Source: Frateuria soli
GTDB lineage: Bacteria > Pseudomonadota > Gammaproteobacteria > Xanthomonadales > Rhodanobacteraceae
Direction of reading: 5' to 3'
Length of the DNA: 64,000 nt
Assembly: GCF_021117385.1 (NCBI RefSeq)
Contig: NZ_CP088252.1
Span: forward strand, 2,874,501-2,938,500
The notes under the pieces are model-generated. The model made no database searches and was not told where the DNA came from. It saw only the letters and a list, made by a program, of their open reading frames with translations. Within the stretch, counting starts at the first letter, position 1. Every line of letters starts with the position of its first letter. The position numbers were made by a program, and so were the translations under genes. Positions 4,245 through 22,716 of this stretch are shown piece after piece.

Positions 4245-4386
4245 CCCTCTCCCCTCCGGGGGAGGGTTGGGTGAGGGCCCGGGGCTCGCGGAAAAGTTTC
4301 GTTAGACGGTTCTTTCAGACCCACAACCGCAGGATTCCGGGCGAGGCCCGCCCCCCTGACCCCCGCCCTCTCCCCCGGGAAGAGGG
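4245..4386. repeat. Paired-hairpin palindromic element (CCCTCTCCCC family), copy 1
   Basis: Left hairpin CCCTCTCCCCTCCGGGGGAG followed by a GGGTGAGGG tail (about 4245-4277), and an inverted right end at 4353-4386 (CCCTGACCCCCGCCCTC, then a hairpin). The two ends are inverted copies around a unique core of about 75 bases. It lies 17 bases after polA. The interval 4229-4666 has no gene: besides this element and the terminator at 4571-4607, I see nothing in 4387-4570. Confidence 0.7.
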
Positions 4387-4941: not shown

Positions 4942-7227
4942 ATGGATGTTTCGTACCTGATCGACTCGCTGAACGACGCGCAGCGCGAGGCCGTCTGCGC
5001 ACCGCCCGGGCACTACCTGGTACTGGCCGGGGCCGGTTCCGGCAAGACCCGCGTGCTGACCCACCGCATCGGCTGGCTGACCCAGGTCGAGCGGGTGCCA
5101 CCCTGGGCGATCCTGGCGGTCACCTTCACCAACAAGGCCGCGGGCGAAATGCGCGCGCGGCTGGACTCGCTGATCCCCGGCGGCACCACCGGCCTCACCG
5201 TCGGCACCTTCCACGGCATCGCCCACCGCCTGCTGCGCCGGCACTGGCGCGAGGCCGGCCTGCCGGAAGGCTTCCAGATCCTCGACGCCGACGACCAGCA
5301 GCGCCTGGTCAAGCGCGTGGTGGCCGGGCTCGGCCTGGACGAGGCGCGTTTCCCGCCGCGCCAGGCGACCTGGCAGATCAACGGCTGGAAGGACGAGGGC
5401 AAGCGCCCGGACGCCATCGAGCACGGCAACCACCCCGTCACCCGCACGCTGGTGCAGATCTACCAGGCCTACGAGGAGGCGTGCCGCCGCGCCGGCCTGG
5501 TCGACTTCGCCGAACTGCTGCTGCGCGCGCACGAGCTGTGGCTGAAGAATCCGGCCGTGCTCGAGCATTACCAGCAGCGCTGGCGGCACCTGCTGATCGA
5601 CGAATTCCAGGACACCAACGCGCTGCAGTACGCGTGGATCCGCGTGCTCGCCGGCAACGTCGGCAAGGTGTTCGCCGTGGGCGACGACGACCAGTCGATC
5701 TACGGCTGGCGCGGCGCCAAGGTGGAGAACATGCAGCAGTTCCTGCGCGACTTCCCCGGTGCCCGCACGATCAAGCTGGAACAGAACTACCGCTCCACCG
5801 CGACCATCCTGAAAGCCGCCAACGCAGTGATCGCGCGCAACGGCGGCCGCCTGGGCAAGCAGCTGTGGACCGCGGGCGAGGCGGGCGAGCGCGTCGCGCT
5901 GTATGCGGCCTACAACGAGCAGGACGAGGCGCGCTTCGTGATCGAGCGCATCCGCGAGTACATCGCCGAGCACGGCAGCGCGAAGGACTGCGCGATCCTC
6001 TACCGCTCCAATGCACAGTCGCGCAACTTCGAAGAGCAGCTGATCCAGCGCGACATCCCCTACCGCGTCTACGGCGGCCTGCGCTTCTTCGAGCGCGCCG
6101 AGATCAAGGATGCGCTGGCCTACCTGCGCCTGACCGCCAACCGCCACGACGCCGCCGCCTTCGAGCGCGCGGTGAATACGCCGCCGCGCGGCATCGGCGA
6201 CCGCACGCTGGACGTGCTGCGCCGGCGCGCGCGGACCGAAGGCAGCTCGATGTGGGAGGCGGCGCTGGGCGAGCTGACCGACGGGCGCGAGCTGGCTGGG
6301 CGCGCCAAGAACGCGGTGAAGGGCTTCCTGGCGTTGATCGACCAGATGGCCCGCGATTTTGCTCCCTCTCCCCTCCGGGGAGAGGGCTGGGGTGAGGGTA
6401 CGGGTGCACCAGATGTTCCCGCTCCGACCGAACCCTCACCCCCAACCCCTCTCCCGGCGGGAGAGGGGAGCCAAAGCCTCACCCTCGCCGAACAGGTCGA
6501 CCATGCCATCACCCATACCGGCCTGCGCGACCACTACGAGAAGGACAGCCGCGGCAACGGTGAGGCACGCGTCGAAAACCTCGACGAGCTGGTCAGCGTC
6601 GCCAGCCGCTTCGCCATGACGCCGGAGGACATCGAAGCGGGGTTGACGGAACTCTCCGCCTTCCTTTCCCACGCCGCGCTCGAGGCCGGCGAGGGCCAGG
6701 GCGAATCCTGGGACGATTGCGTGCAACTGATGACGCTGCATTCGGCCAAGGGCCTGGAGTTTCCGCTGGTGTTCCTGGTCGGCATGGAGGAAGGCCTGTT
6801 TCCGAGCCAGCGCTCGACCGAGGACGAGGGCCGGCTGGAAGAAGAACGTCGCCTGGCCTACGTCGGCATCACCCGCGCGCGCGAGCGGCTGGTGGTCACC
6901 CACGCCGAATCGCGGCGCATGCATGGCACCGAGATGCTCGCCCGCCCTTCGCGCTTCCTGGCCGAGATGCCGCCCGAACTGGTGGACGAGGTACGACCGC
7001 GCGTGCAGGTCAGCCGCCCCATGTACGCCGGCCGCTACACCGATACCTCTTCGTTGCAGGAAGACCTGCCGGTCAAGCTCGGCCAGCGCGTTAGCCATCC
7101 GAGCTTCGGCGAGGGCGTGGTGGTCAGCGCCGAAGGCAGCGGCGCGCACACGCGGCTGCAGGTGAACTTCGCCGACAGCGGCAGCAAGTGGCTGGTCGCC
7201 GCCTACGCCAATCTCACGCCGCTGTAG
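4942..7227 (+). CDS. uvrD: DNA helicase II (UvrD), with in-frame palindromic-element insertion
   Basis: 761 residues from the ATG at 4942 (MDVSYLIDSLNDAQREAV, the usual UvrD start). It is a 3'-5' SF1 helicase of nucleotide excision and mismatch repair. Motifs seen in order: Walker A GAGSGKT (Lys35), TFTNKAAGEM, IDEFQDTN, GDDDQSIYGWRGA, LHSAKGLEF and RRLAYVGITRARERL. A C-terminal tail (KLGQRVSHPSFGEGVVV) matches the UvrD Tudor-like extension. Residues about 474-510 are translated from a paired-hairpin DNA element (6361-6472), giving a low-complexity Pro/Gly/Glu segment in domain 2B that homologues should lack. The frame is kept through it and all motifs are intact, so the protein is probably active. 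Confidence 0.96.
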   Translation: MDVSYLIDSLNDAQREAVCAPPGHYLVLAGAGSGKTRVLTHRIGWLTQVERVPPWAILAVTFTNKAAGEMRARLDSLIPGGTTGLTVGTFHGIAHRLLRRHWREAGLPEGFQILDADDQQRLVKRVVAGLGLDEARFPPRQATWQINGWKDEGKRPDAIEHGNHPVTRTLVQIYQAYEEACRRAGLVDFAELLLRAHELWLKNPAVLEHYQQRWRHLLIDEFQDTNALQYAWIRVLAGNVGKVFAVGDDDQSIYGWRGAKVENMQQFLRDFPGARTIKLEQNYRSTATILKAANAVIARNGGRLGKQLWTAGEAGERVALYAAYNEQDEARFVIERIREYIAEHGSAKDCAILYRSNAQSRNFEEQLIQRDIPYRVYGGLRFFERAEIKDALAYLRLTANRHDAAAFERAVNTPPRGIGDRTLDVLRRRARTEGSSMWEAALGELTDGRELAGRAKNAVKGFLALIDQMARDFAPSPLRGEGWGEGTGAPDVPAPTEPSPPTPLPAGEGSQSLTLAEQVDHAITHTGLRDHYEKDSRGNGEARVENLDELVSVASRFAMTPEDIEAGLTELSAFLSHAALEAGEGQGESWDDCVQLMTLHSAKGLEFPLVFLVGMEEGLFPSQRSTEDEGRLEEERRLAYVGITRARERLVVTHAESRRMHGTEMLARPSRFLAEMPPELVDEVRPRVQVSRPMYAGRYTDTSSLQEDLPVKLGQRVSHPSFGEGVVVSAEGSGAHTRLQVNFADSGSKWLVAAYANLTPL
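6361..6472. repeat. Paired-hairpin palindromic element inside uvrD, copy 2
   Basis: Left hairpin and tail (6361-6398, ending TGGGGTGAGGG) and inverted right end (6433-6472, starting CCCTCACCCCCA) around a core of about 34 bases. It is the same family as the intergenic copies after polA and before srkA. The whole element is read through in frame as part of UvrD. Confidence 0.85.
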
Positions 7228-9852: not shown

Positions 9853-12528
9853 CTATCTGGCGTTTTTCGTACCGGCACCGGCGCGCCACTGCGCGAGTCG
9901 GGCTCCGACCGGCCAGCCGCGGATACGGCCAAGGGCGGCGTCGAAGGCTGGGGTATCGACCGCAGCGGCGTGCCCCGGACCTGGGGTCCTGGCCGCTAGC
10001 GTGAGCTGGGCCTCCAGCCGCCAGGGGTGGCTGGACGGCGCCTGCGCGCGGTCCAGCGCGGCGATCAGTTGGCGCGCGGTGCGTGCGGCGGCGTCATCGT
10101 GGCCCAAGGCGCTGGCCAGACGCGTGGCCTCGACCAGGTAGAGCGGCCAGGACAACGGATCATCGGTGTGCACGCGAGCGTTCCACGCGGCGGTCCTGGC
10201 GTAGGCCGCGCCTGCGCCCGCGCGGTCCCCCGCGGCAGCCAGTGCGCGTCCGCGCACGATGACCGCCAGTGCGAGCGTCACCTCGCGGCTACGGTCGCAG
10301 GTGGCGGCGTCGGCCTGGGCCTGCGCCGCGGCGGCAGCGGCGACCCGCGGCTGGTGCAGCAGCAACTGCGCGCGCGCCTGCTGCAGTTCGCTCCAGGCGA
10401 CCGGGCAGCGCGGCGCCTTGCGCGCGTGCTGCGCGTCGAGCAGCGCCCGTGTCCGGGCCAGCGCGTCGGCGGCGTTCTCGCGCGCGAGCAGCACGTCGAT
10501 GCGCTGCACGCGCGGCTCCAGCGGCTTCCGGCGCAGGCTGTCGCCTAGCGAGTCGACCAGTGCCTGGGCCTTGACCGCGTCCGCCTCGGCGACATCGAGC
10601 TCGCCGCGATAGAGCGCGATCTTCGACTGCAGTTCGAACGTGTTGGCCAGGCTCATCGGGGTGGCGCCGCGCAGCTTGCGCGCCAGCGCCTCGTCGGCCA
10701 GCGCGCGTGCCTCGGCGATGCGGTCGGCGTCGAGCAGCACGCTGGCCAGATCATGGGTGGCAAAGCGCAGTTGGTCGCAACGCAGGCCCGCGGCGCAGTC
10801 GGCGCGGTAGGTGGCGATCATCTGTCGCCCGTAGGCCACCGCGGGGGCCATGTGCCCGCGACCGTCCTCGACCGCCATCGCGATCTTCAGCAGTTCGCTC
10901 CGCGGGACATCGGGCGGCAGCCGCCGTGGCGGGATGGCCAACAGCGGGGCCAGCCGCTGCGCGGCCTCGTCGTAGTTGCCGCGACGGACCAGCGTGCGCA
11001 CCAGTCCCATGCCTGTCTGTACGCGCACGGACGAGGCCTCGGGGAGCTCCACGGCGCTCGCAGCGGCGGCGCGCAGCAGCTTCTCCGAATGTTCCGGATC
11101 ACCCATGTCGCGCAGGACGTTGCCGAGCGTGTAGAGCAGCTCGGCATGCAGGTCCGGCTGGTCGCGCAAATCCCGGGGCAGGCTTTCGGCGGCGTGGTAG
11201 ACCAGGGTCGGCACGTCGGGGCGCTGGCTGGCGGGGACGTCCGGCGCGGTGCTGCCGAGCAGGTCCACGACGAAATCGCGGATCGCCTCCGCCCGCTGCG
11301 CCTCGTGGCGCGCCGCGCGCGCCTGCCACAGTGCGGCCGGGAGCGACACCAGGATGGCCAGCAGGAACGCCGCGGTGATCGCCACGCCGACGCGGTGCCG
11401 CGCCGCGAACTTGCCCGCGCGGTACCGGCGCGAGGGCGGGTGCGCCTGCACCGGTTCGCTGTCCAGGTGGCGCGCGATGTCCTCGGCCAGCGCGCCGGCG
11501 GAGGCGTAACGCCGCTCCGGCTCGGGGCAGGCGGCCTTCAGCACGATGTTGTCCAGATCGCCGCGCAGTCTGCGCCGGATCGGCGCGACCGCCGCAGGCG
11601 AGCGCGTGAGGCCATAGGCCTCGGCGAGGGTCGGGGTGTCGGTGCGCGAGGGTGGCGTGCTGGTGGCGCCGGCCGCGCGACGGCGGCCACTGACCAGCTC
11701 GTCCAGCAGGACGCCCAATGCATAGACGTCGGTGGCGGTCGTGACCGGTTGCTGGGCGAACTGCTCCGGCGCGGCGTAGGCCGGGGTGAGCGCGAGGTGC
11801 CGGGTACGCGTGGCCTCGTCGATGTCCTCGTCGAGCAACTTGGCGATGCCGAAGTCCAGCAGTTTGACGTCGCCCTCGGCGGTGACCAGCACGTTGGAGG
11901 GCTTGAGGTCGCGGTGCACGATCAGCGCGCGGTGGGCGGTCTCGACCGCGCGGCAGACCATGAGGAACAGGACCAGCCGCTGGCGCAGGGCCAGCCGCCG
12001 CTCGCGCGCGTAGTGCGTGATCGGCTGGCCGTCGACCAGTTCCAGCGCGATGTAGGCCTGGCCGGCCTCGGTGATGCCACCCTCGATCAGGCGCGCGATG
12101 CCCGGGTGGCGCAGTCGCGCCAGCGCCTCGCGCTCGCGGCGGAACTGGCGCTGCGCATCGGCGGTGTAGAGGCCGCGCGCGAGCAGCTTGATCGCCACTT
12201 CCTGGCGCACGCCCTCGCTCGAGCGGAAGGCGCGGAACACGGTCGAGGAACCACCCTCGCCCAGTACCTGGACCAGTTCGAACGAGCCGATGGTACTGCC
12301 CGCGGGGAGCGCGTCGGCGACGCTCGCATCGCCGATCGCCTGCGCGGCGCGGGCGGCATCGCCGGTGGAGAGCAGCTCGCCTTCGGCGGCATCGGCGGCG
12401 AGCATGCGTTCGAGCTGCGCGCGCAGCCCCGGGTCGGGGCAGCGCTCGGCCAGCAGACGCGCACGCGCGGCCGCCGGCAGCGGAAGGACCGTTTCGAACA
12501 GCTCGCGCAACGACGGTAGGGATGCCAT
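9853..12528 (-). CDS. Transmembrane Ser/Thr protein kinase with C-terminal helical repeat sensor
   Basis: 891 residues from the ATG at 12528, which has AGGAG 7 bases upstream. A short N-terminal region (1-75) precedes the kinase domain: glycine loop LGEGGSSTVF, catalytic Lys114 in VAIK, HRDLKPSN (Asp207), DFG (Asp225) and AYAAPEQ. It is a Hanks-type kinase with all key residues. One membrane helix follows near 380-400 (GVAITAAFLLAILVSLPAALW). The remaining 490 residues are Ala/Leu/Arg-rich helical, TPR-like and predicted periplasmic. The gene lies just downstream of an ECF sigma factor gene; in Xanthomonas such kinases (PknS type) phosphorylate and activate the paired sigma factor (EcfK type). 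Confidence 0.92.
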   Translation of the reverse strand: MASLPSLRELFETVLPLPAAARARLLAERCPDPGLRAQLERMLAADAAEGELLSTGDAARAAQAIGDASVADALPAGSTIGSFELVQVLGEGGSSTVFRAFRSSEGVRQEVAIKLLARGLYTADAQRQFRREREALARLRHPGIARLIEGGITEAGQAYIALELVDGQPITHYARERRLALRQRLVLFLMVCRAVETAHRALIVHRDLKPSNVLVTAEGDVKLLDFGIAKLLDEDIDEATRTRHLALTPAYAAPEQFAQQPVTTATDVYALGVLLDELVSGRRRAAGATSTPPSRTDTPTLAEAYGLTRSPAAVAPIRRRLRGDLDNIVLKAACPEPERRYASAGALAEDIARHLDSEPVQAHPPSRRYRAGKFAARHRVGVAITAAFLLAILVSLPAALWQARAARHEAQRAEAIRDFVVDLLGSTAPDVPASQRPDVPTLVYHAAESLPRDLRDQPDLHAELLYTLGNVLRDMGDPEHSEKLLRAAAASAVELPEASSVRVQTGMGLVRTLVRRGNYDEAAQRLAPLLAIPPRRLPPDVPRSELLKIAMAVEDGRGHMAPAVAYGRQMIATYRADCAAGLRCDQLRFATHDLASVLLDADRIAEARALADEALARKLRGATPMSLANTFELQSKIALYRGELDVAEADAVKAQALVDSLGDSLRRKPLEPRVQRIDVLLARENAADALARTRALLDAQHARKAPRCPVAWSELQQARAQLLLHQPRVAAAAAAQAQADAATCDRSREVTLALAVIVRGRALAAAGDRAGAGAAYARTAAWNARVHTDDPLSWPLYLVEATRLASALGHDDAAARTARQLIAALDRAQAPSSHPWRLEAQLTLAARTPGPGHAAAVDTPAFDAALGRIRGWPVGARLAQWRAGAGTKNAR

Positions 12529-19692: not shown

Positions 19693-19843
19693 GCTCCTTC
19701 TCCCCGGGAAGAGGGTCGGGGTGAGGGGCCGGGGCTCGCCGGGAAAGTCCCCCGAAACGTGGAAAGAAAGACCACGCCCTTGCGGAGCCTTTCCGCCAGG
19801 GCGGCCCCTCACCCCAGCCCTCTCCCCGGCGGGGAGAGGGAGC
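19693..19843. repeat. Paired-hairpin palindromic element, copy 3 (before srkA)
   Basis: Left end 19693-19729 (GCTCCTTCTCCCCGGGAAG, ending GGGGTGAGGGG) and inverted right end 19805-19843 (CCCCTCACCCCAGCCCTC, then a hairpin). The core is about 75 bases. The right end stops 8 bases before the srkA ATG and contributes the purine-rich GGAGAGGGAG sequence that, with GGGAG just after it, is the only visible ribosome-binding signal of that gene. Confidence 0.8.
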
Positions 19844-22642: not shown

Positions 22643-22716
22643 GTAGGAGCCCACTTGTGGGCGATGCTCTTCGTCCGGCATCAGAGCAGAGGCATCGCCC
22701 ACAAGTGGGCTCCTAC
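22643..22716. repeat. REP-like palindrome, type 2 (GTAGGAGCCCAC head)
   Basis: Perfect 25-base inverted arms (22643-22667 and 22692-22716) with a 24-base centre. The head is GTAGGAGCCCACTTGTGGGC. It lies between the convergent rlmI and pgaD genes. Close copies are at 43164-43236 and 63191-63274. Confidence 0.85.

Follow-up and report, generated by a model that had tools for sequence, protein, structure and literature searches.

The uvrD gene of Frateuria soli encodes, in frame, a segment whose sequence identifies it as two inverted intrastrand-triplex (PIT/TM_ECO-type) repeats. We consider it probable that this triplex-type pair entered before the genus diverged and is tolerated filler in a permissive loop that unrelated repeat families have reused. 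Coordinates (Table 1) refer to the window, i.e. the whole 64,000-nucleotide stretch of DNA that was analysed.

Table 1. uvrD, its repeat-derived segment and the related intergenic copies in the window.
Feature	Positions	Strand	Basis
uvrD (DNA helicase II), host gene, 761 aa, intact	4942..7227	+	NCBIfam NF008743 over cut-off; Pfam UvrD-helicase and UvrD_C
Site B (turn NVGK ahead of VFAVGDDDQ), empty here; heptamer repeat there in 5/87 relatives	5656..5667	+	UvrD rows
Repeat-derived coding segment, site A; residues 474-509 repeat, 510-512 (SQS) uncertain	6361..6477	+	alignment; pLDDT <50 at 478-510
Left half unit: hairpin CCCTCTCCCC-tcc-GGGGAGAGGG (arms 6364-6373/6377-6386), C, tail TGGGGTGAGGG (6388-6398); triplex motif, second loop type B-like (CT)	6364..6398	+	motif search; Table 1 of Holder et al. 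2015
Core separating the half units, 34 bases	6399..6432	+	pair comparison
Right half unit, inverted: tail 6433-6445, hairpin arms 6446-6455/6459-6468; second loop type A-like (TT)	6433..6468	-	motif search
Intergenic copy of the same family, downstream of polA	4245..4386	.	half unit 4354-4374
Intergenic copy of the same family	19693..19843	.	half units 19707-19727 and 19806-19826

The segment starts at the first base of codon 474, and the inverted half units (6364-6468) are read as residues 474-509 without a stop, with UvrD helicase domains on both sides. In this copy, the hairpin CCCTCTCCCC/GGGGAGAGGG is followed by a tail reading GGGGTGAGGG, and the right half is the reverse counterpart. 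Arms, tails and frame thus confirm the original prediction of a paired-hairpin DNA element lying in frame within uvrD; its statement that the frame is kept without a stop also holds, the segment being translated and the gene intact. The core is short, as the gap between half units spans 31-159 bases in 42 inverted pairs from the fetched stretches (a few of these pairs share one half unit). In an AlphaFold model of UvrD (mean pLDDT 80.5; 50 sequences in the alignment), residues 478-510 have a pLDDT below 50 and are flanked by helices 453-473 and 515-525. With this very low model confidence the insert looks like a disordered-type loop, although the low pLDDT may partly stem from few of the 50 aligned sequences having the insert. 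The predicted loop between two helices agrees with the proposal that the element is tolerated as a loop. Alignment to 2is1 places the insert at about residues 470-478 of E. coli UvrD, which we take to belong to subdomain 2B.

The half-unit motif matched seven times in the window (≤3 mismatches), compared with 0.20 matches expected in shuffles. Five of the matches fall in the three elements described in the original prediction, whose intergenic copies are real and of one family with the uvrD element; its origin in a dispersed, mostly intergenic repeat family is likewise supported. The two other matches, at 11622 (in a kinase-like frame) and 61535, have three mismatches each and were taken as chance.

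TM_ECO, formerly PIT, is the E. coli intrastrand triplex motif treated by Holder et al. (2015; PMC4666352, citing Hoyne et al.), whose Table 1 has CCCTCTCCCTGTGGGAGAGGGCCGGGGTGAGGGC as its first entry. As in TM_ECO, a pyrimidine-purine hairpin of 9-10 bp here precedes a mirror-type third strand whose triads are canonical: on the left of the uvrD copy, 9/9 purine-motif triads between tail and stem are of this kind, and on the right 10/10. The stem CCCTCTCCC/GGGAGAGGG, the third strand GGGGTGAGGG and the arrangement in inverted pairs of two loop types are also alike. In the part of Holder et al. considered here, each of five inverted E. coli pairs joins one type A and one type B motif (PMC4666352). 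The same pairing of second loops is found here when loops are typed simply by their first base (T or C), a more permissive rule than the TTA/CCG of Holder et al.: A-like and B-like loops are joined in 32 of the 42 pairs, the uvrD copy included, against about 19 expected from the loop frequencies, the others being three A+A, three B+B and four unclear pairs.

Unlike TM_ECO, the type A loop of the present family (hereafter F1) is TT before GGGG rather than TTA, the family has a common core (about GCCGGGGCTCGCGGG), and a second subfamily carries the tail GGGGAGAGGG (by eye). The two subfamilies seen by eye in F. soli thus combine tail GGGGTGAGGG with core GCCGGGGCTCGCGGG and tail GGGGAGAGGG with core GGAGGCYTTTG, and both tails are triplex-compatible. 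The setting differs as well: the same part of that source reports E. coli copies as always intergenic (PMC4666352), whereas copies here lie in frame in uvrD, hrpA, mfd, lhr, ppc and lpd; the intergenic location belongs to the E. coli description and lies outside the motif's definition. It also reports the triplex of one E. coli copy as shown in vitro and unsupported in vivo (PMC4666352). At least one frame is open in each of the 42 paired copies, and 141 of their 252 frames are open in total. A head-to-tail array of F1 half units with a repeated peptide-like unit and an open frame was observed at G000:C1:570772-571317 (in L218).

All six genus genomes examined have the insert in frame at site A, and a sequencing error is therefore very unlikely. 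The original prediction had named, as evidence against itself, a segment shared by all close homologues and conserved at the amino-acid level. All six do carry the segment, but in the other five members its peptide is only 46-77% identical to this one (13/28 to 30/39 aligned residues), with the rest of UvrD at 95-97%. Between L003 and L004, codon positions 1/2/3 of the insert differ by 0.15/0.17/0.23, compared with 0.05/0.03/0.17 in the 150 codons upstream; near-equal divergence within the insert, absent upstream, was seen in all four equal-length pairs tested. As the insert codons differ about equally at all positions, the peptide appears to drift while the frame is kept. Judged from these comparisons, the copy is old in the genus and would have entered before the genus diverged; its presence in all six members and the divergence pattern both speak against a recent insertion, and the picture of a fresh one was abandoned. 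F1 inserts show reading variants (PSPLRGEG, PLSPRERG; by eye), with at least five changes in 19 rows on the left and five in 20 on the right. Block replacement as their source was dropped, since slippage would also be compatible with divergence at every codon position.

To place this copy among its relatives, we compared 87 UvrD rows. UvrD was found at E ≤ 1e-100 in 145 of 147 family genomes, the matches listed being without internal stop, and rows were kept from 80 fetched regions, the six genus genomes and seven loci of named genomes. The 80 regions are a selection rather than a random sample, which began with the nearest relatives and passed over contig-edge and many distant loci (59 of the 145 matched genomes outside). 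Six rows were excluded: four taken to be duplicates (L100, L134, L138, L164), one presumed duplicate (L117) and one truncated row (L131). Eight rows without the regex anchor at site A were assigned by eye, L006 to F1 and seven to none. At site A, 21 rows have F1, 10 have an unrelated heptamer repeat (F2; GGGATTS/GGGAATS) and 9 have a decayed insert, the other 47 being empty; the cut allowed three mismatches, a level that 1 of 740 shuffles attained for F1 and none for F2.

We mapped these states on a quick tree built without sites A and B, in which 34 of 84 inner branches are open. Presence or absence at site A takes 16 changes, 12 of them forced by starred (well-supported) branches, and the four states together take 26; F1 accounts for 13 changes (8 forced) and F2 for 9 (6 forced), and site B takes five changes for its five filled rows. 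That the whole family goes back to one ancestral insertion is unsupported by this tree, given the 12 forced none/filled changes. Close sisters also differ: L108 has F2 and L151 is empty, and L109 has F1 and both L133 and L142 are empty. Since their nearest rows are empty, the inserts of L108 and L109 are likely gains. The clean insertion anticipated in related UvrDs was not borne out; in the pairs read, the insert replaces native loop residues, and other genera have an unrelated repeat there. L149 (uvrD of G146) carries one F2 sequence at both sites A and B, with 120 of 129 aligned bases equal, and offers a natural example of copying within a gene. Separately, the UvrD of L029, a record titled Bacillus subtilis SK7B5, is 61% identical to this one and resembles neighbouring Stenotrophomonas rows; the assembly is probably mislabelled or contaminated.

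Because unrelated repeats occupy it in relatives, the UvrD loop seems to be a site where genomic filler can settle and is tolerated, and not a newly acquired working part, and we infer that its filler has no function. If the insert instead served UvrD, for example by tuning the 2B region, and protein-level selection maintained it, its presence throughout the genus genomes examined would fit, as would the fact that 2B is the regulatory subdomain of UvrD. The near-equal divergence at all codon positions, the unrelated peptides at site A (with more than half of the rows having none) and the very low model confidence argue against this, and we regard it as very unlikely. Arrival by recombination with a foreign uvrD allele would be in line with L008, where the codons beside the site B insert differ from those of its sister L005. 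However, L008 groups with L005 (support 85), and outside the two sites UvrD of this genome is 95-97% identical to that of the other five members, making such an origin extremely improbable.

Repeats of both families also lie inside other genes. In the F. soli genome, 122 repeat clusters, a subset of the copies that includes two-mismatch places only in part, were collected in 428,815 of 3,488,520 bases (89 with F1, 38 with F2). A codon-usage scan (score cut 0.15, and 0.1 in genome G011) flagged ten of them, comprising one chance match and nine in-frame clusters in eight genes: uvrD, hrpA, mfd, lhr (two clusters; a third by eye), ppc and lpd for F1, and aceE and nadE for F2. Gene names follow NCBIfam; lhr scores best, though below the cut-offs, with models of large ATP-dependent helicases, and we take this gene to be Lhr. 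In G011, which belongs to another genus, 146 places match the tail motif (≤1 mismatch), and 80 clusters in 70 stretches yielded eight in-frame clusters in six genes (metH, lhr, an ABC-F gene, hrpB, lpd and murL). By eye, its three lhr clusters sit at the three places used in F. soli, and its lpd insert in the same linker. Among 30 HrpA loci (29 frames read), one loop holds F1 in eight (one weak), all six genus members included, and F2 in one. Among 30 Mfd loci, one loop holds F1 in four (two weak, one of these in another family) and, by eye, a third repeat type in two; three of the six genus members are filled and three empty. The third type, in mfd of G013 and G011 (L373, L381), reads as a peptide of its own in the same Mfd loop (RHPGEGRDPA / RRPGASRDPA..LDSGLRRND; by eye). 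The HrpA and Mfd loops are thus reused by repeats similarly to the UvrD loop.

Helicases make up four of the eight host genes in F. soli. Open frames of helicases defined by PF00271 (14 matches) and PF13361 (6 matches, 4 genes) cover 48.7 kb, or 1.4% of the genome, and the chance of at least four helicases among eight hosts is 2.6e-6 at 1.4% and 5.1e-5 at 3%, for a class chosen post hoc and an incomplete host list. The hosts therefore look non-random, with at most 1.4% of bases (two Pfam families) against half of the genes, which plain loop tolerance does not predict. Helicase and repair genes could be preferred targets if these enzymes or loci interact with hairpin or triplex DNA. G011 is in keeping with this (two of six scan hosts are helicases, and a targeted search found F1 in its uvrD and hrpA as well), as are the many repair genes listed for GTAG/CGTC REPs in the part of Di Nocera et al. 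(2013; PMC3733652) considered here. Yet polA, a repair gene next to uvrD, is free of internal copies at all 30 loci (a three-mismatch match in L351 belongs to a frame extended upstream), metabolic genes are hit too (ppc, lpd, aceE, nadE, metH, murL), and the helicase class was named after the data had been seen. Such targeting is quite unlikely in our judgement. A bolder version, in which hairpin or triplex repeats preferentially colonise genes of helicases able to unwind or process them, coupling repeat and enzyme and making the loop a fast-changing tuning part, is a speculation to which we give very little credence.

Mobility was examined from the side of possible movers. The genome has two Y1_Tnp genes. 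One is RAYT-like (L002) and is flanked by five copies of a different, GTAG-type REP, which is therefore likely the RAYT substrate; the other (L001) has neither F1, F2 nor this REP nearby. The GTAG-type REP (about GTAGGAGCCCACTCGTGGGCGATGC) also forms three inverted pairs in the window, at 22643/22692, 43164/43212 and 63194/63247. F1 and F2 units are absent from the roughly 1.5 kb around each Y1_Tnp gene, so the arrangement of GTAG/CGTC REPs, whose copies flank a RAYT gene, is not that of F1 and F2, and a RAYT was rejected as their mover. The element had been called mobile-looking, but an enzyme that would mobilise it could not be identified. The inverted-pair layout, the many dispersed copies, the likely single-lineage gains in L108 and L109 and the presence of a RAYT-like gene would suit a non-autonomous transposon (MITE/BIME) that depends on a transposase, RAYT-type or other, and enters genes at a low rate. 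We nevertheless consider this unlikely: besides the surroundings of L001 and L002, no clean target duplication was seen at inserts in the filled/empty pairs read, and in the part of Holder et al. considered here the E. coli motif has no link to mobile elements (PMC4666352).

Under the preferred reading of tolerated filler, an inverted PIT/TM_ECO-type pair would have entered the UvrD loop before the genus diverged, by copying linked to replication or repair (template switching or ectopic recombination) rather than through a dedicated transposase. The insert would persist because the repeat is GC-rich and stop-poor and because the loop tolerates almost any filler in the right frame. The UvrD loop, together with a small number of loops in further large enzymes, prominently helicases, would have gained, decayed and lost unrelated dispersed repeats repeatedly. 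A further observation, besides the excess of helicase hosts, fits this reading less well. The DNA hairpin is stronger than in synonymous recodings (z < -2) in 11 of 20 F1 inserts, compared with 3 of 10 F2 inserts, 1 of 9 decayed inserts and 0 of 37 empty loops, and DNA-level constraint or refreshing of F1 inserts by gene conversion may therefore be at work; the window's own uvrD copy (z = -1.6) is outside this group.

These results move a known non-B-DNA repeat from an intergenic setting into conserved proteins, where unrelated repeat families meet in shared loops, and they provide natural filled/empty pairs among close relatives. Both the spread of such repeats without a known transposase and the excess of helicase and repair genes, as loop tolerance versus targeting, are made testable.

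In-frame palindromic repeats are known from Rickettsia (PMC2229807, as far as covered here), and the original prediction compared the uvrD element with these Rickettsia palindromic elements. The comparison stands for behaviour, as both are palindromic repeats translated in frame in conserved proteins; by sequence the present repeat is of the triplex type. For triplex-type motifs in coding sequence, no earlier report was found at the level of titles and abstract openings, which is not proof of absence. A further parallel comes from the GTAG/CGTC REPs, which, in the part of Di Nocera et al. (2013; PMC3733652) considered here, occur as dimers in ORFs, including many DNA repair genes and UvrD/REP helicases, much as the repeats described here do. 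Unlike those REPs, F1 and F2 have neither a GTAG nor a CGTC tag, and GTAG is likewise missing from the uvrD repeat. In the same part of that source, REPs of two xanthomonads fall at roughly one position in recB, and different sites are reported for other genes of one class (PMC3733652), whereas here unrelated families reuse shared sites. Two points are new as far as we have seen: triplex-type repeats occur in coding sequence, and unrelated repeat families reuse one set of protein loops.
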